Assembly (NCBI RefSeq): GCF_007859755.1
Contig: NZ_SJPF01000002.1
Coordinates: forward strand, 453,729 to 517,728
Length of the DNA stretch: 64,000 nucleotides
DNA from: Blastopirellula retiformator
GTDB taxonomy: Bacteria; Planctomycetota; Planctomycetia; Pirellulales; Pirellulaceae
Reading direction: 5' to 3'
Below the pieces are notes generated by a model, which did no database searches, was not told the origin of the DNA, and saw only the letters and a program-made list of their open reading frames with translations. Both the position numbers and the translations under genes were made by a program. Each line of letters starts with the position of its first letter. Position 1 is the first letter of the stretch. Below are positions 7,766 to 17,891 of the stretch, one piece after another.

Positions 7766-8446
7766 ATGAAACGCAACGACAAGTTCCCCGGCTTCCCGAA
7801 GCAAACGGTCACGTTCCTCCGCCAGCTGCGGAAGAACAACAACAAAGCGTGGTTCGACGAGCATCGGGGCGACTACGACCAATACTTCGTCACCCCGGCC
7901 AAGGCGTTTGTCGAAGCGGTCGGTAAGAAGCTGCCGCGGTTGTCGCCGCGATTGGTCGCCCAGCCGCGGATCAATGGTTCGATCTATCGGATCAACCGCG
8001 ACATCCGCTTCAGCAAAGACAAGACGCCGTACAAGGATCACCTCGATTTTCTCTTTTGGGAAGAGGACAAAAAGTCGAGCCCGTCGGCGCTCTTCTTGCG
8101 GGTCAGTCCCGATGGCCTGTTCCTGGGCGCGGGGGCGTATGCCTGTCCGGACCTGCTGAAGAAGCTGCGTCCCGCGATCACGCATTCGATCTTCGGCCCC
8201 GAGTTGGCGGGCATCGCCAAGAAGCTGCGAAGGTCAGGGCACGAGATTCTGGGAAAGCACTACAAACGCTTCCCCCGCGACTTTCCCCAAGATGGCCCTG
8301 CGGCCGAGTTCCTGCTCCACAACTCGCTATATGTGGTAGCGGAAGAGCCGTTGGAGTTAGCCTACTCGCCGGAGGTCGTCGATCAGGCGATTGCGCGGTG
8401 GAAGAAGATGCTGCCGCTGCATGAGTGGTTGATGAATCACGGGTAG
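7766..8446 (+). CDS. DUF2461 domain-containing protein
   Basis: The 226-residue protein matches the DUF2461 (TIGR02453) family throughout. It has the N-terminal FLRQLRKNNNKAWFDEHR segment, the central RINGSIYRINRDIRFSKDKTPYK block and the FLRVSPDGLFLGAGAY segment. The biochemical function of the family is not known to me. The protein looks soluble, without signal peptide or membrane helix. The TfoX-like gene follows after 10 bases, so the two are probably cotranscribed. Confidence 0.9.
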   Translation: MKRNDKFPGFPKQTVTFLRQLRKNNNKAWFDEHRGDYDQYFVTPAKAFVEAVGKKLPRLSPRLVAQPRINGSIYRINRDIRFSKDKTPYKDHLDFLFWEEDKKSSPSALFLRVSPDGLFLGAGAYACPDLLKKLRPAITHSIFGPELAGIAKKLRRSGHEILGKHYKRFPRDFPQDGPAAEFLLHNSLYVVAEEPLELAYSPEVVDQAIARWKKMLPLHEWLMNHG

Positions 8447-8456
8447 GACCAAGCCG

Positions 8457-8789
8457 ATGGACGACGTTGACGAAGCGCTGGTCGAGCGGATTCGCCCCTT
8501 CATGCGGCGGCGGAAGGGGTACGCTGAAAAGAAAATGTTCGGCGGTCTTTGCTTCTTTATCAACGGCAACATGACGGTCGGCCCCTGGAAGGGATCGCTG
8601 ATCGTCCGCCTGGCGAAAGAAGACCACGAGAAAAACCAGCGTCGCCCGCACGCAACGCCGATGGATATCACCGGCAAAGTGATGAAAGGCTGGGTAAAGG
8701 TGGAGCCGGCCGGCATCGCCGCCGACGAAGATTTGAAATTGTGGATCGACCAGGCGGTGGCGTATGCCCGGACGTTGCCGGCGAAGTAG
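8457..8789 (+). CDS. TfoX/Sxy N-terminal domain protein
   Basis: A 110-residue protein made of the TfoX N-terminal domain alone, shown by the opening helix with KKMFGGLCFFINGNMTVG and the following strand segment. In gammaproteobacteria TfoX regulates competence with CRP, but single-domain homologues in other phyla have no established role. A TAGGA Shine-Dalgarno sequence precedes the ATG at 8457. It is probably in an operon with the upstream DUF2461 gene. Confidence 0.85.
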   Translation: MDDVDEALVERIRPFMRRRKGYAEKKMFGGLCFFINGNMTVGPWKGSLIVRLAKEDHEKNQRRPHATPMDITGKVMKGWVKVEPAGIAADEDLKLWIDQAVAYARTLPAK

Positions 8790-9086
8790 CGGTTGCTTCA
8801 GGCGGAACTCGCCTTTACCTGCGTCCAGCTCGCGAACGTCCGTGGGGCCAATCATTCTGGTTGGGCAAACCTTTCCGAACAGATCAATCGCATGTGCAAC
8901 AGCTTTGCGAGGATGTTGGTGACGCCTTCGATTCAATTTTAGCCTAGACGCGGAATGGGCCGATCTTCAAGAGGTGTCCAGCGACCGCTATTTGCTCTGA
9001 GAGCTCTGGGGAAACGGAACCCTCTTTTCGCGCCGGCGCTGGCGCCTCATCGTCCAGAAACCCACACCCCGGCAAGGATTGCCACG

Positions 9087-10178
9087 ATGCGTATGCTGTT
9101 CGCCTGCACCTTCATTCTTGCCACGCTCCTACTGACGCCGGACTTGGCGGCAGCGCATCCCGAAGATGGCGCCCTGTCGCAGCCGCCGATCAATACGCCG
9201 ATGGCGCCCTTCGCCGCCGGCGGTCATGGGCATGACCTGAAGGATGGTCGTCCCGACACGCATGCTCCGGCGGGCTTGATGGGGGATCATGTCCATCATC
9301 AGGGCGAGGTGATGGTCGAGTACAAGTTCCAAAAGATGTTCATGGACGGCAATCGGTATGGCTCGCAATCGGTCAGCGATACCGAAGCGCTCGACGTGAC
9401 CGGCATTCCCTTCATGGCGACGCCGACCCGCATGGACATGAATATGCACATGCTCCACTTCATGTATGGCGCCACCGACAACGTCACGCTCTACTTCATG
9501 CCGATGTGGATGGAACTGACGATGGATCACCTGCGGCGGAATGGTTCGACCTTCACGACGTACAATAGCGGGTTCGCCGATCTTCGCTTTGGCGCCCTGA
9601 TGCTGTTGCACGAAACGGACGACTCGGACTTGATCTTCAATCTGGGCATGAGCGTGCCGACCGGCAACATTCATGGCACGACCACCGCCGCCAACCCAAT
9701 GGGCGCCGAGACGTTGATGCCTTACCCGATGCAGTTGGGTAGCGGTACGTTCAATTTTCGCCCCGGCATCACGTACAAGAAGTATTGGGAGCGGGCCAGC
9801 AGCGGCGTGCAACTGCAGACCAACCTGCCGATCGGCGAGAACTACCGCGACTACTCCGTCAGCGACGAATTTCAGCTGAACTGGTGGTTCGCCCAGCGCA
9901 TCGGTCAGCGCGGTTCGCTCAGCTTCCGAACGGAAGGGCTGTGGCGCGACAACTACGGCGGCCCTGGCGATCCGCAGCTGAACCCCAACACGATCAGCAC
10001 CGCCCGCACCGACATGCGGGGAGGCTTCTGGCTGAACCTGGGCGTCGGCGGCATCTACCAATTTTGCGATGGCAGCCGACTAAGCGTCGAACTGGTCCGC
10101 CCGGTCTATCAAGATCTGGAGGGCGTGCAGTTGGAGACTGATTTCCAGATGTTCGCCAGTTGGTCGAAGTCTTGGTAG
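9087..10178 (+). CDS. His/Met-rich outer-membrane transporter-like protein
   Basis: A 363-residue exported protein. A signal peptide (MRMLFACTFILATLLL, cleavage near AAA-HPED) is followed by a His-rich segment (residues ~20-75 with HGHD, HVHHQ) and then by alternating aromatic strands typical of a beta-barrel. Two Met-rich patches, MDMNMHMLHFMYG and MPMWMELTMDH, could bind soft metals such as copper. The barrel resembles the MetA-pathway phenol-degradation / transporter family of outer-membrane proteins. I chose the ATG at 9087 because it has an AAGGA Shine-Dalgarno sequence and a proper signal peptide. A metal role is inferred from composition only. Confidence 0.7.
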   Translation: MRMLFACTFILATLLLTPDLAAAHPEDGALSQPPINTPMAPFAAGGHGHDLKDGRPDTHAPAGLMGDHVHHQGEVMVEYKFQKMFMDGNRYGSQSVSDTEALDVTGIPFMATPTRMDMNMHMLHFMYGATDNVTLYFMPMWMELTMDHLRRNGSTFTTYNSGFADLRFGALMLLHETDDSDLIFNLGMSVPTGNIHGTTTAANPMGAETLMPYPMQLGSGTFNFRPGITYKKYWERASSGVQLQTNLPIGENYRDYSVSDEFQLNWWFAQRIGQRGSLSFRTEGLWRDNYGGPGDPQLNPNTISTARTDMRGGFWLNLGVGGIYQFCDGSRLSVELVRPVYQDLEGVQLETDFQMFASWSKSW

Positions 10179-10496
10179 GCCAACTTATCGATGGCGGTCG
10201 AAAAACGCACCTGGCGCGGGCCCGTCGCTGCGCGTAGGTGATCCGGTTCTCATGCCATTGGATGTACCCAGCCAGATCGAGTTCTCAGTTGCACCACGAC
10301 GCGTAGGTGATCGCCATGGCGACGGCGATCATGCAGAGGCGCGTTTTCATGGGCGGTTTTTCGTCGGGACTTGGAATCGGAATTCTCGAACCCTTATGAT
10401 GAAGTAAACCGAGTCGGCGATGCAAGTAATTTGCATTAGAAATGCGTTGGCGGCGACATCGCTGCAAGAGCGGCAGGCACGGCCTGCCCTACGATT
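10179..10496. other. Intergenic region with a REP palindrome
   Basis: No convincing gene is present. A 21-codon minus-strand frame (10285-10350) looks like a signal peptide but has no ribosome-binding site. A GGCAGGCACGGCCTGCC palindrome lies at 10471-10494, next to the end of the RFAP synthase gene; related copies are at 17888-17909 and 18631-18693. Confidence 0.5.
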
Positions 10497-11495
10497 TTAG
10501 CCCGACGTCACGCCAAAGTTTTCTGCGGCGGTGGACCACTCGCAATCGGCGTCGGCGATCAGCTGGGCGCCTTGGTTGTCGGCGGCGGTGATTTCCATCT
10601 CAAGCGCTTCGTCGGCCAGCGTTTCGCTTAGATAGTCGCGGGCCGCGGCGGCTTGTTCTTTGCTCTTGCAGAGGGCGAAGATCGTCGGGCCCCACGAGCT
10701 TTGCCCGACGCCGCGCACGCCAAAGTGTTGCAGGGCGTCGACGGTCCGTTTGCTCAGCTGATTCAAGTAAGCGCCCCCCTGCACTTGCACAAAGCAGTTG
10801 CCCGCCAGTTCGCCATAGCGGAACAGACCGTCCGCAAACCGATCAAAGTCGGCGTCCTGCAAAGCGGGCGTCAGCTCTTCGTACAAGAACCGCTTCAGCT
10901 GGGCGGTCACTTCCAGCGGCACCGGCGGCAACTTGCGAAAGGCCGATACTTCGGCCGGGCCCGAGATGCCGCTGCGTTTGCTTTGGAAGACCAGCAGGAA
11001 GGTCCAGCCGGCGGGAAACTCCATCCGCGCTTCCAGCGGCGACAGTTGACCGGGCGTTTCCATCCCCCGCTCGGCGATGAAACCGCCTTGATCAAAACCG
11101 TAACAACCAACCGCTGATCGGGCGCCCCGGCCAACCGACGCGGCGAGCCCTGCGATCGAGTCGGCCTGAATCTGGCTGGCGCAATTGAGCAGCGTGGCGA
11201 CCCCCAGTCCCAGTTGCGTGCCCAGACCGAGCCCAACATGTTGCCGCGGGGTTTGGATGGCGCGGATCGAAACGGGCGGCAAATCTTGGCGATGGTACTG
11301 ACTCCACCGCTGGGCGAATTCCCGAATGCGGCCCGCCGTAGGTCCGGCCGCGGAAAATTGTTCGGCCGGATCAAGCGTCAGACGCAGCGCCGGCCGCTGA
11401 ATCATCACCCCGCAACCGCCATACTTGGGCGCCGACCGATTGCCGAACGACAACAGTCCAAAATGGAGACGACTTGGCGTGACGATCTCAAGCAA
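10497..11495 (-). CDS. Beta-ribofuranosylaminobenzene 5'-phosphate synthase-like (GHMP family)
   Basis: RFAP synthase joins p-aminobenzoate (pABA) to PRPP with loss of CO2, the committed step of tetrahydromethanopterin synthesis. The 332-residue protein has the family start EIVTPSRLHFGLLSFG, the GHMP glycine loop HVGLGLGTQLGLGVA, and the C-terminal GVGQSSWGPTIFAL block. Upstream on the same strand lie DUF447, pabA, pabB and a dihydropteroate-synthase-like gene, which supports an H4MPT role: PabA/PabB would make the pABA used here. It is separated from the DUF447 gene by a 266-bp palindrome-rich gap and may have its own promoter. Confidence 0.88.
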   Translation of the reverse strand: MLEIVTPSRLHFGLLSFGNRSAPKYGGCGVMIQRPALRLTLDPAEQFSAAGPTAGRIREFAQRWSQYHRQDLPPVSIRAIQTPRQHVGLGLGTQLGLGVATLLNCASQIQADSIAGLAASVGRGARSAVGCYGFDQGGFIAERGMETPGQLSPLEARMEFPAGWTFLLVFQSKRSGISGPAEVSAFRKLPPVPLEVTAQLKRFLYEELTPALQDADFDRFADGLFRYGELAGNCFVQVQGGAYLNQLSKRTVDALQHFGVRGVGQSSWGPTIFALCKSKEQAAAARDYLSETLADEALEMEITAADNQGAQLIADADCEWSTAAENFGVTSG

Positions 11496-11614
11496 CGTCG
11501 GTTACCAGGCAGGTTTTGCAGGCAGGGGAAACTACCCGTAGTGTAACGTTTCCCCCTACAAAGGAGAAACGGGCTAGACAAGGAAAAAGGGAGTCGGATA
11601 ACTCCGTTACGTGT

Positions 11615-11745
11615 GCCACTGCTGGCTTGTCCAGCAGTGAGAACCTGCCAACCGTTCCGAATGGCCCATTTGCCCGTTCACCGACTGGATGATTCCATGT
11701 CTTAAAACATGGAAACCGGGCACTGCTGGACAAGCCAGCAGTGGC
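11615..11745. repeat. Paired CACTGCTGG palindromes with central hairpin
   Basis: Two 25-bp palindromes of the form CACTGCTGG-N5-CCAGCAGTG lie in inverted orientation at 11615-11639 and 11721-11745. Between them is a TTCCATGT/ACATGGAA hairpin at 11693-11714. The arrangement could form a cruciform. Further copies of the palindrome occur at 24633-24655 and 27556-27582, so this is a dispersed REP-like family. Confidence 0.75.
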
Positions 11746-11761
11746 GCCCATGGGAGCAAGT

Positions 11762-12343
11762 TCAACTTCCTCTTTTTGTCGCGACGAAGTCGCAGATTTG
11801 TGCGAACGCTTCTCGTTCAGGATCTCCGCCGGTCTTTTCGATCAGGGGGCGTAGTCGCTCTAGGTCTTGCTCAATGCCGTCGAGTGGCAAAAAGTCGACC
11901 CGAGTCGCCAAGATCGCCCCTTCGACCACCGCGTGCAGCGCGCGATTCAAGCCGAAGAAATCTCGCAGGCGTCCTTGCGCCGCGACCATGCACTCGATCG
12001 TCGCGCGGTCTTGCGCATCGTCCAGCTGCACCACCTGCAGCGCGTACCAACGACAGGTGTTCTGCAAAATGACGCCGCCTGTCTGTGGGCAGCGGGTCAG
12101 CGGTCCGATTAGCTCTTCGGTCGCTGCGCCAATCGCCGCCGCGGCTAGCAGCCGCACATCGTCGGTCACATGCACTACCACCGGCGAACCTTGCTTCAAG
12201 TTCTGATAGGTCTGCGACGTCTTGAAGGGGCGCAGCGTGAACTGCGTCAACTGACGATCAACCAGCGGGCCCATCGGCGCCACGTTGACCGTGCCGTCGG
12301 GGCGAATCGTCGTGACCAGGCTTTCCAGCACCATCGGCGGCAT
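11762..12343 (-). CDS. DUF447 family protein (H4MPT/C1-associated)
   Basis: The 193-residue protein matches the DUF447 family, which has a split-barrel flavin-reductase-like fold, from MVLESLVTTIRPDGTVNVAPMGP to the end. Members are known mainly from methanogens and from bacteria with H4MPT-linked one-carbon metabolism, and are genetically linked to that pathway. The exact reaction is not settled. The ATG at 12343 lies 9 bases beyond the pabA stop codon (an internal ATG at 12334 is an alternative), indicating an operon with pabA and pabB. Confidence 0.85.
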   Translation of the reverse strand: MPPMVLESLVTTIRPDGTVNVAPMGPLVDRQLTQFTLRPFKTSQTYQNLKQGSPVVVHVTDDVRLLAAAAIGAATEELIGPLTRCPQTGGVILQNTCRWYALQVVQLDDAQDRATIECMVAAQGRLRDFFGLNRALHAVVEGAILATRVDFLPLDGIEQDLERLRPLIEKTGGDPEREAFAQICDFVATKRGS

Positions 12344-12352
12344 CGATCTCGC

Positions 12353-13012
12353 TTAGTAATAGAAAGGGACGTCTTGCGGAGCAAAGTCAGGCGGCACGCT
12401 CGGCGGCGCGTCGCTGGCGATCTCGCTGTGCATGTGCGCTTCGATCCCGACGCCGCGCAAAAAGTTGCCGATCATCGCGAAACCTTGCTCGGTCAAGATC
12501 GACTCAGGATGAAACTGCACGCCGTAGACCGGCCGCGTCACATGCCGGACCGCCATGATCTGCCGATCTTCGGCCGCGGCGATCGTCCGCAAACAGGTTG
12601 GCAGCGACTTTAGTTCGACGGTCAGCGAATGGTAGCGGCCGACGCGAATCGAATCGGGCATGCCTGCGAACAGCGGATCGTGATCATGCCGCACGACCGA
12701 CGACCGGCCATGCATCGGCTCCGCCGCGCGAATCACCTTTCCGCCGAGCGCCTGCGCGATGGTTTGATGGCCGAGACAGACTCCCAGCATGGGCGTCGTG
12801 TCAACGAACGTGCGAACCACGTCGAGCGACACGCCCGCTTCATCCGGCGTGCATGGCCCTGGCGACAGGACGATCGCGCTCGGCTGCAACCGTTCGATTT
12901 CTTCCAGCGTGATCACATCGTTGCGCACGACATGCGTCTCCTGGCTCCAGAGGCGGAAGTACCGCGCCAGGTTGTTGACGAAGCTATCGTAGTTGTCGAT
13001 GACCAGGATCAT
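12353..13012 (-). CDS. pabA: Aminodeoxychorismate synthase, glutamine amidotransferase subunit
   Basis: A class I glutamine amidotransferase of 219 residues that supplies ammonia to PabB. The nucleophile is C79 in GVCLGHQ, and the His-Glu pair sits in YGVQFHPESILTEQG. Such subunits can serve anthranilate or aminodeoxychorismate synthase; the partner overlapping by 4 bases (pabB) carries the PabB-type PIKGT motif, which argues for pABA formation. A proline-rich C-terminal tail of about 30 residues extends beyond the usual end of the domain. Confidence 0.93.
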   Translation of the reverse strand: MILVIDNYDSFVNNLARYFRLWSQETHVVRNDVITLEEIERLQPSAIVLSPGPCTPDEAGVSLDVVRTFVDTTPMLGVCLGHQTIAQALGGKVIRAAEPMHGRSSVVRHDHDPLFAGMPDSIRVGRYHSLTVELKSLPTCLRTIAAAEDRQIMAVRHVTRPVYGVQFHPESILTEQGFAMIGNFLRGVGIEAHMHSEIASDAPPSVPPDFAPQDVPFYY

Positions 13013-14424
13013 GAAATTGCGGCGATCGCCTGCAGGATGCCGCCTGCCTTATGCCAGGTTTCTTCGTATTCGCGCCGCGGCTCGCTTTGCACCACCAAGC
13101 CTCCTCCCACCGGAAACTGCCACCATCCAGCAGCCGCCGTCACGGTGCGGATCAGGATGTTCAGGTCAACCGTACCGTCCAACCCAATGTAGCCCAGCGA
13201 ACCGCAATACGGGCCGCGGACCGTCGGTTCGAGTTCGGCGATGATCTGCATCGCCCGGATTTTGGGAGCGCCGGTGATCGAACCGCCGGGGAATGCAGCC
13301 GGCAGCAGATCGAGCGGGCAGGCGTCGTCGCGCAGCCGGGCTACAATCGTTGAGACTAGGTGCTGCACCGTGGCATATTGCTCGAGCACGCACAGTTCGG
13401 TGACCGAAACGCTTTCGTCGGCGCAGACTCGCGACAGGTCGTTCCGCATCAGATCGACGATCATGATATTTTCGGCCCGATCCTTCTCGCTCGCCAGCAA
13501 ATCGCCCCCGGCATACATATCCCACTCAGGCCGACCGCTGCGGAGCCGCGTTCCTTTGATCGGCCGGGTTTCGACCTGACGTCCTTTCACCTGGACAAAT
13601 CGCTCCGGCGAGGCGCTCAGCAGCGTGGCGTCGTCCATGTCAAAGTAAGCCGCAAACGGCGCCGCGTTGCAGGTTCGTAAGCTGCGATACAAAGTCGCCG
13701 GTTCGCTGGTCGCCGGATGCAAGAGACGCTGCGAAAGGTTGACCTGAAAGATGTCGCCAGCCCGTACGTACTCGACTGACCGCTCGACCGCGGCCAAGTA
13801 AGCTGTTTCCGAAAAGCTGCTGGTAACGCCAGCATGCGGCGTGGAGAACTGCGGCGTCAGGCGCTCGACGGAGAGCGGCTGACGCTGCGACGGCGGTTTC
13901 GCTTCTTCCGGCGAGACGCCGACCTGCAGCCACCGCAAGAATTGATCGGCTCGCTGCTGGGCCCGCTCTATGCGCTTATTCTTGTTCGTCTCGGGGAAAC
14001 CTTGGGAGATCAACCAGGCGTCGCCGCTGGCATGATCGACGCCAATCACCACGTCATAAAACCCGATCGCCAACTGCGGCACGTTGAACTCATCCTGCTT
14101 GGCCGCTTCCACCCCTTCCAGCGCGGCGCCAAACTCATAACCAAACAGGCCGGCCGCCCCACCTTGAAACGGCGGCAGGCCGCTGATCGTCGGCGTCTGA
14201 AATTGCGCCAGCAGTTCGGCGATTCGCGCTAGACAATCGCGATCGCCAGGCTGGGCCACGATCCACCGCCAAGGATCGGCCGTTAGAAAGCTATACCGAC
14301 CGAGCCGAACATGCTGCAGCGCGCTGTCGAGGAACAAGCAGCGGGGCGCTTCGCGCAGTTTCTCCCACGCGGCGACGATATCAAAGTTGGCCAGCGGCAC
14401 GATGACCGGTGCGGGGTCGTTCAC
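13009..14424 (-). CDS. pabB: Aminodeoxychorismate synthase component I
   Basis: This 471-residue chorismate-binding enzyme makes 4-amino-4-deoxychorismate from chorismate and ammonia. The lysine of PIKGT (K290) is diagnostic of PabB, whereas anthranilate synthase TrpE has PIAGT. Other family blocks are present: FQVNLSQRL, LSASPERFVQV, SEKDRAENIMIVDLMRNDL and AFPGGSITGAPKIRAM. The stop and start codons overlap pabA by 4 bases and the upstream dihydropteroate-synthase-like gene by 4 bases, so the three are translationally coupled. The context suggests that its pABA feeds H4MPT as well as, or instead of, folate. Confidence 0.93.
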   Translation of the reverse strand: MNDPAPVIVPLANFDIVAAWEKLREAPRCLFLDSALQHVRLGRYSFLTADPWRWIVAQPGDRDCLARIAELLAQFQTPTISGLPPFQGGAAGLFGYEFGAALEGVEAAKQDEFNVPQLAIGFYDVVIGVDHASGDAWLISQGFPETNKNKRIERAQQRADQFLRWLQVGVSPEEAKPPSQRQPLSVERLTPQFSTPHAGVTSSFSETAYLAAVERSVEYVRAGDIFQVNLSQRLLHPATSEPATLYRSLRTCNAAPFAAYFDMDDATLLSASPERFVQVKGRQVETRPIKGTRLRSGRPEWDMYAGGDLLASEKDRAENIMIVDLMRNDLSRVCADESVSVTELCVLEQYATVQHLVSTIVARLRDDACPLDLLPAAFPGGSITGAPKIRAMQIIAELEPTVRGPYCGSLGYIGLDGTVDLNILIRTVTAAAGWWQFPVGGGLVVQSEPRREYEETWHKAGGILQAIAAIS

Positions 14425-15824
14425 GACTCGTTCTCCCGCGATTTAGTCTTGCCCCGCTTCAGGCGATGCAGCTTTTCGGCCTGCGTTAGATAACCCCAGT
14501 CGAGCGATTCGTCCTGGCGATACTGCTTGCTTAGCTGATTGGCGGTCAGCGCCTTGCAAAGCTCAAAGCCAAGATAGAAGGCGTGCGACGGGTCGACGTT
14601 GGTGGGCGCCGTTTCCATCAGTTGGCTGAACAGCTCGAACGGATCGCTGGAAGTGAGATGCAATTGGCGACTGACCAAATGCAATGTTTCTCCGTCGGCG
14701 AACAGCCGATAGTTATTGTCGCGGATGGTCGCCGCCAGCCGCTCTAGGTCTTCGCTTTTCTCGTAGACGACGCGGTCATCACGCAGCGTGACCAGCTTCG
14801 GCTCGATCCGCTTCGGCAACACTTTTTGCTCGACCGCGTAGTGCATCAGCCGCCGGGCCAGGTCGCACTCTTTCACGCTGGTGCGGGCCCAGTTGATCAC
14901 CTGCGTCGTCAAGACGCCCCGCACGCCCAGTTCCTGACAAAACCCAAGCAGCAGCGTGTTGACCCCGGCCGAGTCGACGTCGGTCAGTTCGGTCAGGTTG
15001 CCGATCCCCATGAAAAGCTCGGCCTGGGAATATCGCCGCCGCACTTCGACATACCGGGCCAAACTCTCGGCAAACCCAAACGCGATCGGCTCGAGGATCG
15101 GATCGATACGATAGCGAACGCCGTCCTGCTCGAGCCGCGCGATGGTCGCATCGAGGCCGGCCAGCGTTTTTGGATCGTCGGGAATGACGATCACTTCGCA
15201 ATTCCACTCGGCGGCACGGGCGACATTGCTGGAATTGACCGACAGGACCAGCTCGGCGCCTGCTATTACCGCGGCGGCGATTTCGACCGGGTTGAGACTG
15301 TCGATGGACACCCGCAGGCCGACGTCACGCAGCGCCGCGACGGCATCGGCGACTCCTTCCCACGTGGCGCCAGGGTCGCAGCCAACGTCGATCAGGTCAG
15401 CGCCATCCTGGGCAAGTCGCAAGCCTTCGGCCTGTAGATCGGCGAGCGAGAAGCTGGCGGCGTGGTTGATCTCGGCGACGATCTGGATGTCGTAGCCGCC
15501 GTAGTCATCGCCCCGGGCGTTTTCGCCAAAATGGGTCGGCAGCAGCCGCAAGTCTTTCGGCCCGCGCTCGACCGGTACGCCCGCCTTGGCGGCGATCACG
15601 GCGAGATCTCCCAAGCAATAACCGGTCACCATCACCTGCGTCGTGCCCGGCGGAACCTCCAACCGCGCCGCGACCCAATCGGCCGTCATCAGGGCGGCGA
15701 CGGTGATGTTCATCGTCTGGATGGTGTAGCCGAAGCCGATTCGCGGGGCGAGATCGCCCAGAATCGCGCGCAGCGCCGGTTCGGCTAACCGTCCGGTGAC
15801 GAAATGAAATTGCGGCGACGACAT
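14421..15824 (-). CDS. Dihydropteroate synthase-like protein (TIGR00284 type)
   Basis: A 467-residue protein with an N-terminal ~140-residue extension (FHFVTGRLAEPALRAIL...), then a pterin-binding TIM-barrel core including GADLIDVGCDPGATWEGV and VSIDSLNPVEIAAAVIAGAEL, and a C-terminal ~100-residue tail. This matches the archaeal/planctomycete dihydropteroate-synthase-related family rather than FolP. Its likely role is joining the pterin to the arylamine ribose intermediate in H4MPT synthesis; this is inferred from family and context. The ATG at 15824 lies 5 bases after the SDR stop codon, and a long upstream extension through the SDR gene is a shadow. Confidence 0.88.
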   Translation of the reverse strand: MSSPQFHFVTGRLAEPALRAILGDLAPRIGFGYTIQTMNITVAALMTADWVAARLEVPPGTTQVMVTGYCLGDLAVIAAKAGVPVERGPKDLRLLPTHFGENARGDDYGGYDIQIVAEINHAASFSLADLQAEGLRLAQDGADLIDVGCDPGATWEGVADAVAALRDVGLRVSIDSLNPVEIAAAVIAGAELVLSVNSSNVARAAEWNCEVIVIPDDPKTLAGLDATIARLEQDGVRYRIDPILEPIAFGFAESLARYVEVRRRYSQAELFMGIGNLTELTDVDSAGVNTLLLGFCQELGVRGVLTTQVINWARTSVKECDLARRLMHYAVEQKVLPKRIEPKLVTLRDDRVVYEKSEDLERLAATIRDNNYRLFADGETLHLVSRQLHLTSSDPFELFSQLMETAPTNVDPSHAFYLGFELCKALTANQLSKQYRQDESLDWGYLTQAEKLHRLKRGKTKSRENES

Positions 15825-15829
15825 TTTCG

Positions 15830-16615
15830 CTATTCGTCCCGCTCGGGAAGGTGCGAGTGATCCAAGCCGCCGTTGACCGGCAGCACGTGCCCCGTGATGA
15901 ACCCGCTGTTTGGCGAAACGAGAAACTCGATCGCCGCGGCGATGTCCTCGGGAGTGCCCCACCGCCGCAGCAGCGCCTCTGCGGTAGCGCGGCGGCTCCA
16001 AAGATCGCTCGCCGTTTCGCCCCAAGATGTCTTGATCCAACCGGGCGCGACCACGTTGACCCGCACCTGCGGCGCCAGTGACCGGGCCAGGCTGCGGCTG
16101 AAGGCGGTGATCGCCGATTTTATCGTGGCGAACATCTCGCCGCTGTCCCCTTCCATGCCGCACTCCGACTGATCCCAGCCGATGTTGACGATCGCGGCGC
16201 CTTCCCGCTTTTCCGCGATCCAGCGGCGACCGACTTCTCGGGAGAGATGAATCGTCGATTCGACGTCGACCTGCCACAACAGTTGCAGCTTTTCGGCAAA
16301 CGAGAGTTCTTTGCTGGCGCCGGTCAGGACGTCGACGCCCGCATTGTTGACCCAATAGTCAACACCGCCCCAAACGTTCCAGGCCGAATCGATAAATTTT
16401 GACCGGGCCTCGGCGTCGGCAAAGTTGCACAAAACCGTGGCGGCTTTCCCCCCCAAGCGGGAAATCTCGGCGCAGGTTTCCTCGGCGCCGGCGCGGTTTT
16501 TGGCCGCGTGAACGACGATGCTGGCCCCGCGGGCCGCCAATCGCATCGCTGCGGCCCGGCCGATTCCGCTGGAAGAACCGGTTACGACGGCGATTTTGTG
16601 GGTCAAATCAGGCAT
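15830..16615 (-). CDS. SDR-family protein with altered catalytic residues
   Basis: A 261-residue Rossmann protein of the short-chain dehydrogenase/reductase family. The cofactor loop TGSSSGIG (12-19) and the NNAG motif (90-93) are intact. The catalytic YxxxK reads FATIK, so Tyr is replaced by F162 while K166 remains; the usual Ser after the IVNI strand is W147. It is the first gene of the unit leading to the pterin and pABA genes, with a 5-base gap to the next. The position suggests a pterin-linked step, perhaps reduction of a dihydropterin, but the lost Tyr and Ser argue against classical SDR chemistry. Confidence 0.8.
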   Translation of the reverse strand: MPDLTHKIAVVTGSSSGIGRAAAMRLAARGASIVVHAAKNRAGAEETCAEISRLGGKAATVLCNFADAEARSKFIDSAWNVWGGVDYWVNNAGVDVLTGASKELSFAEKLQLLWQVDVESTIHLSREVGRRWIAEKREGAAIVNIGWDQSECGMEGDSGEMFATIKSAITAFSRSLARSLAPQVRVNVVAPGWIKTSWGETASDLWSRRATAEALLRRWGTPEDIAAAIEFLVSPNSGFITGHVLPVNGGLDHSHLPERDE

Positions 16616-16754
16616 AGCGGGATCAGGGAGCTTTCCAAGTCGCTGGGGGGCGCCAACTGCGAGGTCGGCTGTATAGTATGTTTGCAATTGAGCTTCGCTC
16701 GCCCCTTTTCATTTTGATACGACGCCGCTCCCTCGACAACCAGCACTAGACGCG

Positions 16755-17891
16755 ATGCCGAACTCCCCTCCACCCTTTCAGCGCCTCAGCAAGACCTGCT
16801 TCGCGTTTCGCGGCTACAACTTTGAGAACCTTGGCAGCACGCCGCAGCTGCTCGCCCATCCGGCCTACGGCCCGATCATGCGCCGCCGGCTAGTTCAGTG
16901 CAGCGAGATCGCCAGCGAGCATGTGGGGCGGAAGATCGACCTGATTCGCCGGGTCGAAGCCCGCGAAGAGTTAGGCCTGAACGCTTACGCCGACGCCATC
17001 GCCCTGATCATCGGGGCGGAACTGGCGCAGCTCGATATCTTGCGCGAGCTGTTTCATGTCGAGATCGAAAAGTCGCAATACTTTTTGGGATATAGCCTGG
17101 GCGAAATCGTCGCGCTGTGCGCTTCCGGCGCGCTGACCGTCGAAGATGCCGTCGGCATTACAACCGCCATGGCCGATGATACGGCCAGTCTGGCGCAAGG
17201 CTGTCAGTTGGCGGTCGTCTTTTGCCGCAAACAAGCGCTGCCGCTGAAGCTGGTTCAGCAGTGCTGTATTGAGACGAACCAGGAAGGGGACGAACTGGTC
17301 GGGGTGTCGGCGGTGCTGTCCCCCAACTCGGTGCTGCTGATCGGCGAAGGGACGGCGCTGGAGCGCTGCCGCGAGAAACTGGCCGATCAACTCCCCTGCC
17401 GCGTCTTTTTCAAAGTGAATGAACACCGCTGGCCGCCGATGCACACGCCGCTCGTCTGGCGGCAAAGCATCAACACCCGGGCAGCCCTCTTCATGGCCAA
17501 AATGCAAAGCGGCCTGGTCGCGCCCAAACCGCCGGTCTTGTCGATGGTGACCGGCAAGCTGAGCTACGACGAAACGAACCTGCGCGACACGATCTACCGC
17601 TGGGTCGACCAGCCGCAGCTGCTGTGGGCGGTCGTTTACGAAACCTTGCGCAGCGGGACCGAAACGATCATCCACATCGGCCCCGGACCGAACATCATCC
17701 CCGCGACATACCACCGCCTGTCCGACAACGTGCAACTGCAAACCAAGGGAAGCTTGGGTTCGCGGACGCTCTCAACCTTTGTGAATCGGCCGTGGCTGAA
17801 AAATCTGCTACCGGAACGGGCCGCCCTGTTGCGAGCGCCGATGATCAAGCATGTAATGATCGAAGAGTGGCTGCTGGCGCAAGAATTGTAG
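16755..17891 (+). CDS. FabD-like acyltransferase domain protein
   Basis: A 378-residue protein with the malonyl-CoA:ACP acyltransferase fold. The nucleophile elbow GYSLGE (S114) replaces the usual GHSLGE, and a downstream His in PPMHTPLVW could be the catalytic partner. The C-terminus contains IIHIGPGPNIIPATYHRL, typical of AT domains. The family arginine that holds the malonyl carboxylate is not evident, so another acyl group is possible. It is divergent from the H4MPT cluster across 139 bases and not beside fab or PKS genes. It may be a planctomycete-specific acyltransferase of unknown substrate. Confidence 0.7.
   Translation: MPNSPPPFQRLSKTCFAFRGYNFENLGSTPQLLAHPAYGPIMRRRLVQCSEIASEHVGRKIDLIRRVEAREELGLNAYADAIALIIGAELAQLDILRELFHVEIEKSQYFLGYSLGEIVALCASGALTVEDAVGITTAMADDTASLAQGCQLAVVFCRKQALPLKLVQQCCIETNQEGDELVGVSAVLSPNSVLLIGEGTALERCREKLADQLPCRVFFKVNEHRWPPMHTPLVWRQSINTRAALFMAKMQSGLVAPKPPVLSMVTGKLSYDETNLRDTIYRWVDQPQLLWAVVYETLRSGTETIIHIGPGPNIIPATYHRLSDNVQLQTKGSLGSRTLSTFVNRPWLKNLLPERAALLRAPMIKHVMIEEWLLAQEL

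Follow-up and report, generated by a model that had tools for sequence, protein, structure and literature searches.

A conserved planctomycete gene cluster, probably for tetrahydromethanopterin biosynthesis, that holds the only PabB found in the genome

The genome of the planctomycete Blastopirellula retiformator (order Pirellulales) encodes a cluster of six genes which probably serves the biosynthesis of tetrahydromethanopterin (H4MPT). The stretch analysed here comprises 64,000 nucleotides of contig NZ_SJPF01000002.1 and is called the window; all coordinates refer to it unless another locus is named. As placed by a preliminary description made from the sequence alone, the six open reading frames are all located on the minus strand and run from position 16615 down to 10497. 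The first gene (15830..16615, ATG at 16615) encodes a short-chain dehydrogenase/reductase (SDR) of 261 amino acids which has lost the catalytic tyrosine. It is followed by the genes of a dihydropteroate-synthase-like (DHPS-like) protein with a DUF6513 and a pterin-binding domain (14421..15824, 467 amino acids), of PabB, the aminodeoxychorismate synthase component I (13009..14424, 471 amino acids, GTG start), and of PabA, the glutamine amidotransferase component (12353..13012, 219 amino acids). A DUF447 protein (11762..12343, 193 amino acids) and a protein similar to the synthase of ribofuranosylaminobenzene 5'-phosphate (RFAP; 10497..11495, 332 amino acids, TTG start) complete the cluster. The close packing already described could be confirmed: 5 nt separate the SDR stop codon from the ATG of the DHPS-like gene, the DHPS-like and PabB genes as well as the PabB and PabA genes overlap by 4 nt each, and PabA and DUF447 lie 9 nt apart. 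Five genes are thus tightly arranged, while the RFAP-synthase-like gene stands apart and starts only 266 nt after DUF447.

The family assignments of these proteins differ in strength. The SDR matches PF13561 with 155 bits. The DHPS-like protein passes the cut-offs of DUF6513 (PF20123, 76.7 bits, cut-off 23.9) and Pterin_bind (PF00809, 26.3 bits, cut-off 25.5). PabA is recognised by PF00117 (187 bits) and by the TrpG/PabA model TIGR00566 (214.7 bits, cut-off 121.05). PabB reaches 284 bits with PF00425 and stays under the cut-offs of the curated models TIGR00553 (321.8 bits, cut-off 328.4), TIGR01824 (347.4 bits, cut-off 408.55) and, for TrpE, TIGR00564 (356.5 bits, cut-off 517.7). Its best solved relative is the p-aminobenzoate synthase component I (1k0e), and the motif PIKGT at residue 288 places an active-site lysine where TrpE has an alanine. 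This lysine is a mark of PabB proteins. The DUF447 protein is above the cut-offs of both domain models (PF04289 and PF20766, DUF447_N/C with 68 and 46 bits), and its solved homologues 3b5m, 2iml and 2ptf are entitled uncharacterized or hypothetical. For the last protein GHMP_kinases_C was found with 35.6 bits, and two RFAP-synthase models, which align nearly end to end, are its sole NCBIfam matches. Solved relatives are 6yqq, a ForT-PRPP complex, as well as 8ap0 and 8aoz, which were deposited as RFAP synthase. This assignment is the weakest of the six, and we therefore keep to the name RFAP-synthase-like (RFAPS-like).

The arrangement is not restricted to B. retiformator. In a sample of 117 genomes of the order DUF6513 was found in 88 and MCH in 92. 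The neighbourhood was inspected at 67 order loci, i.e. the window and 66 further DUF6513 loci (67 of the 88 DUF6513 genomes), some of which stop at contig ends, and neighbouring genes were scored by profiles made from the window proteins. All six genes share strand and order at 32 of these 67 loci, the window included, and the arrangement is therefore beyond chance. The individual partners are present at 57 (PabB), 49 (PabA), 52 (DUF447), 49 (RFAPS-like) and 53 (SDR, at least 330 bits) loci, and PabB follows directly downstream of the DHPS-like gene at 50. The motif PIKGT occurs in 69 of the 72 PabB-profile matches of the order loci, while one has PIEGT and two have neither. Variants include six loci in which RFAPS, DUF447 and SDR are turned, four without pabAB (L086, L100, L109 and L119), and one genome (G053) whose PabB-PabA-DUF447-RFAPS part (L151) is on another contig than the DHPS-like gene (L076). 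The full order was also identified in, among others, Blastopirellula marina DSM 3645 (L157), Bythopirellula polymerisocia Pla144 (L180) and Aeoliella straminimaris ICT_H6.2 (L183). In a sample of the phylum DUF6513 is found in only 29 of 294 genomes; of the 24 such loci that lie outside the order, 17 contain PabB and 12 the SDR. A literature search for pABA (p-aminobenzoate) genes together with H4MPT found no report, with most subscription journals out of its scope; the arrangement may already have been published.

The use of H4MPT is supported by the mch gene, for which the preliminary description had recommended a search, and which could be identified outside the window on contig C7 (E 1.7e-119). 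Co-occurrence was counted in the 102 order genomes that are at least 90% complete (15 were dropped, contamination was not filtered, and unlisted genomes were scored as without a match). A DHPS-like protein is present in 77 of the 80 genomes with mch and in one of the 22 without. Downstream of mch in the source genome (L237, C7:40000-58000, 8199-17249), and beyond a WD40-repeat gene on the opposite strand, genes for a RimK-like ATP-grasp protein, an AMP-binding enzyme and 3beta-HSD- and ketoacyl-synthase-like proteins are located. One single-contig genome (G017), listed as 99% complete, has a DHPS-like gene adjoining PabB (L099) and no match for mch and SDR; this is a possible relic of the cluster.

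The preliminary description had also proposed that the cluster provides pABA for H4MPT apart from folate. A Chorismate_bind search of the source genome (6.2 Mb, 97.33% complete) revealed only two proteins, namely the PabB of the window and one TrpE on contig C1 (TIGR00564 571 bits, cut-off 517.7, motif PLAGT), so that no second PabB was found in this 97.33% complete genome. A GATase search gave eight proteins, among them the PabA of the window and a second PabA/TrpG-type protein on C3, which is presumably TrpG. A canonical FolP (318 bits) is encoded on C8, away from the cluster, and a dihydrofolate reductase (DHFR) gene with ThyA beside it is present too. Since FolP, DHFR and ThyA all occur, folate also needs pABA. 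A pABA source dedicated to H4MPT is not supported and was rejected, as the Chorismate_bind search gave no second PabB. What stands of the original idea is that pabAB lie inside what looks like an H4MPT cluster, in an organism with mch. Most likely the single PabB feeds folate and H4MPT alike, one common source being the simplest reading. No pabC could be assigned among the two Aminotran_4 proteins, one of which passes the IlvE cut-offs and the other none. Exactly two chorismate-binding proteins are also found in 101 of the 117 genomes of the order sample (three in 3, one in 9, none in 4); which of them are PabB was judged solely by comparison with the PabB of the window. Among the 22 mch-negative genomes of at least 90% completeness, 14 retain a PabB that exceeds 300 bits in this comparison. 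As side observations, a PF00186 DHFR is present in only 44 of the 117 genomes, though FolP is above its cut-off in 113, and eight genomes of family f17 (at least 90% complete) have no match for mch, DHFR or SDR, for which reason another route to reduced folate from dihydrofolate must exist there.

We therefore consider it likely, leaving the role of the SDR aside, that the cluster is a conserved planctomycete operon of H4MPT biosynthesis which holds the sole PabB found in the genome and whose pABA is shared with folate. What the sequences show are the family identities, the gene order and its conservation, the co-occurrence with mch, no second PabB and the loss of the SDR tyrosine; all enzyme activities, the co-transcription and the sharing of pABA we infer. 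PabA and PabB would form aminodeoxychorismate; the lyase that then sets pABA free would be encoded outside the cluster, and the second Aminotran_4 protein is one possibility. One part would be used by the canonical FolP for folate. The other would be decarboxylated and joined to phosphoribose by the RFAP-synthase-like enzyme, the DHPS-like protein would connect a dihydropterin with the RFAP-derived arylamine, and a later reduction would yield H4MPT.

The SDR deserves closer attention. Its sequence contains the cofactor motif TGSSSGIG, a motif WDQ...GMEGDSGE, and FxxxK instead of YxxxK. The planctomycete subfamily of this SDR shows WDQ...GDSGE as a conserved motif. We aligned 56 sequences with at least 340 bits out of 60 SDR-profile matches in the order loci; the four that were dropped (244-251 bits) keep the tyrosine and look like a different SDR. 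In 55 of the 56 the catalytic tyrosine is replaced by phenylalanine, whereas the lysine is retained in all of them, and W147, D148, G153, M154, W193, T196, W198, W206 and W219 are invariant. The column of the catalytic serine is uncertain due to a two-residue insertion; the likely site is alanine in 50 of the 56 and serine in the window protein. Thus cofactor motif and fold are those of a classical SDR, while the combination of catalytic serine and YxxxK is not found. The AlphaFold2 model (mean pLDDT 95.8) shows a classical SDR fold, and in both sequence and structure FabG-type SDRs are nearest. The 50 structures nearest to the model include Tyr-to-Phe mutants of two SDRs (3itd and 1q7c, one of them entitled inactive) and none of the PIP-type SDRs, i.e. 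phenylcoumaran benzylic ether reductase (PCBER), pinoresinol-lariciresinol reductase (PLR) and eugenol synthase (EGS). A second collection, genome_contigs, consists of the best 80 of at least 551 relatives found by patterns including WDQxxGMxG and APGWIxTxW, whose conservation in this set is partly a product of that selection. Phenylalanine and lysine are present in all 80, and all record titles that name a lineage name planctomycetes. Apart from these proteins, a second SDR which keeps the tyrosine (YETTK or YETSK) is encoded near the RFAPS-like gene at L100 (11963-12949), L109 (3945-4766), L117 (8278-9066) and L119 (4077-4886).

The distribution of the Tyr-less SDR follows mch. At E 1e-60 or better, its profile (A1) finds one copy each in 96 of the 117 order genomes. 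Among the genomes that are at least 90% complete it is present in 78 of 80 with mch versus 9 of 22 without; split by DHFR, the numbers are 32/33 (mch and DHFR), 46/47 (mch only), 0/5 (DHFR only) and 9/17 (neither). All five DHFR-only genomes come from family f7, and the SDR-positive genomes with neither gene, nine in number, belong to f17 and f18, hence the mch-negative groups represent few independent events. Two of these nine matches are weak (G110 with 271 bits and a changed motif, G114 with 222 bits). Of the 86 SDRs of mch-positive genomes 57 were read; 55 of these retain Q149 of the WDQ motif and two have R. Eight were read from genomes without mch: six, all f17, have lost this residue, and two, both f18, retain it. 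A plain replacement of DHFR by the SDR was rejected, as the two are not complementary: 35 of the 38 genomes with mch and DHFR also carry the SDR. Within the fetched flank of the SDR a DHPS-like gene was found at 49 of the 80 genome_contigs loci.

We only tentatively propose, as the likeliest of its possible roles, that the SDR takes the place of Afp or DmrA and reduces dihydromethanopterin to H4MPT. Perhaps it also reduces dihydrofolate in lineages without FolA. In PMC5020050, Afp is reported as not recognised in planctomycete genomes, which makes the SDR a candidate for a reductive step of H4MPT synthesis, and DmrA is described as standing in for Afp in Methylobacterium. According to another study (PMC6193120), the planctomycete homologs in its tree grouped with DfrA and not with DmrA.

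Several observations weigh against the proposed pathway or against the part given to the SDR. The DHPS-like protein scores 170.9 bits with TIGR00284, under the curated cut-off of 256.65, and the RFAP-synthase-like protein remains under the cut-offs of NF040726 (131.5 bits, cut-off 328) and TIGR00144 (101.3 bits, cut-off 113.5). Uptake may be another route of pABA supply. To our knowledge, the known pterin-reducing SDRs keep the tyrosine, and it is also retained in two members of the subfamily, L089 (YAMAK) and, outside the order, L269. The SDR persists without mch in the nine genomes of f17 and f18, it has no match in the mch-positive genomes G083 and G108, and the eight f17 genomes mentioned above manage without it. 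The losses of Q149, all in one family, may be a single event. The 31 genome_contigs loci without a DHPS-like gene in the fetched flank are often short contigs, some however are long. A Mariniblastus metagenome-assembled genome (ALOHA_ZT_22) encodes two Tyr-less SDRs, one beside the DHPS-like gene (L230, 4498 onward) and one not (L218, 9979-10758). Finally, ten of the 44 DHFR-positive genomes have a second, weaker DHFR_1 match which may be DmrA-like. At L218 the SDR is followed by an Abhydrolase_2 gene, and the same neighbour is found at L202.

A doubtful, though reasonable, alternative is that the SDR belongs to the folate/pABA branch or to an unrelated process, its position in the cluster being historical. 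This would fit the 31 unlinked copies and five mch-negative genomes (L138, L141, L142, L241 and L242) in which the SDR lies on the same strand closely upstream of pabB, with gaps up to about 0.7 kb. At ten of the 31 unlinked loci one neighbouring protein each was scanned, and no pterin enzyme was found among them. However, the SDR stays with the DHPS-like gene where pabAB is missing (L086, L100, L109, L119 and L236), so that a bond to pabB was rejected as the sole account; in addition it tracks mch strongly and is absent from all five genomes with DHFR and without mch that are at least 90% complete.

We regard it as unlikely that the SDR is instead a ring-opening reductase, which would transfer a hydride from NADPH to the ribofuranosyl-aniline at its benzylic carbon and so give the open 1-deoxyribitol chain of H4MPT. 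We know of no enzyme assigned to that step. The conserved lysine would give rise to a quinone-methide-like imine through which the opening proceeds, and the enzyme would work in a similar way to the plant pterocarpan, phenylcoumaran and pinoresinol reductases, but on a classical SDR fold. The replaced tyrosine and the invariant lysine agree with this, and the Tyr-to-Phe mutant structures suggest that phenylalanine should ill suit an ordinary carbonyl reduction. RFAP is the aniline counterpart of the 4-(furan-2-yl)phenol scaffold, and PMC13304732 describes the opening of 4-(furan-2-yl)phenol substrates by pterocarpan reductase through a lysine-driven quinoid route. Basil eugenol synthase lacks the SDR tyrosine and uses the corresponding lysine, as stated in PMC1991597. 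On the other hand, the plant enzymes belong to a different SDR subfamily, the two relatives named above keep the tyrosine, and the SDR is retained in some mch-negative genomes, often away from the DHPS-like gene. Similarly unlikely is the extended proposal that this classical SDR, its tyrosine lost and its lysine kept, represents a new type of catalysis and reductively opens the ribofuranose of the RFAP-derived aniline; the loss of Q149 in one family without mch would then mark a switch of substrate. Very improbable, although most of the DHPS-like loci inspected have pabAB within the H4MPT cluster, is a PabAB dedicated to H4MPT with folate drawing its pABA from another source or from uptake, given the single PabB, the canonical folate genes and the PabB of the window type in mch-negative genomes.

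Upstream of the cluster, a divergent gene on the plus strand (16755-17891) has no Pfam match and scores far under the cut-offs of the malonyltransferase models MdcH and FabD; on the other side a gene for a Phenol_MetA_deg family protein adjoins the cluster (8955-10178, plus strand, 26.9 bits, cut-off 22). An Rfam scan at the cluster gave no match, and the numbers of promoter-like sites (2 versus 1.3 expected) and terminator-like sites (12 versus 7.2, sd 2.8) are uninformative.

If pABA is indeed shared, folate and H4MPT would draw on one node whose genes are located inside the H4MPT cluster, and the loss of pabB should affect both coenzymes. Most worth following is the Tyr-less SDR, a concrete candidate gene for a reductive step of H4MPT synthesis. 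For the last such step the archaeal-type Afp is reported, in PMC5020050, as unrecognised in planctomycetes.

Compared with known systems, the SDR resembles the PIP-type SDRs (PCBER, PLR, pterocarpan reductase and eugenol synthase) as described in the excerpts cited above, which are NADPH-dependent, have a catalytic lysine and in the case of eugenol synthase lack the SDR tyrosine; unlike them it is nearest to FabG-type proteins. With the dihydromethanopterin reductases DmrA and Afp it would share the reaction and not the protein family, as DmrA resembles DHFR, Afp is a flavoprotein and the SDR has a classical SDR fold. The folic acid operon of Bacillus subtilis, taken here from a title cited in PMC8305020, likewise has pABA genes (pab and an amphibolic trpG) beside a dihydropteroate synthase gene. 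In the window, by contrast, the DHPS-type gene is of the DUF6513 kind, while the canonical folP is on C8 and a separate TrpG candidate on C3. Genes for RFAP-synthase-like, DUF447 and DHPS-like proteins mark the bacterial islands of archaeal-type H4MPT genes in Methylobacterium and planctomycetes. The cluster of B. retiformator has these three together, with mch in the genome, and differs from what marks such islands in that it includes pabAB and a Tyr-less SDR.

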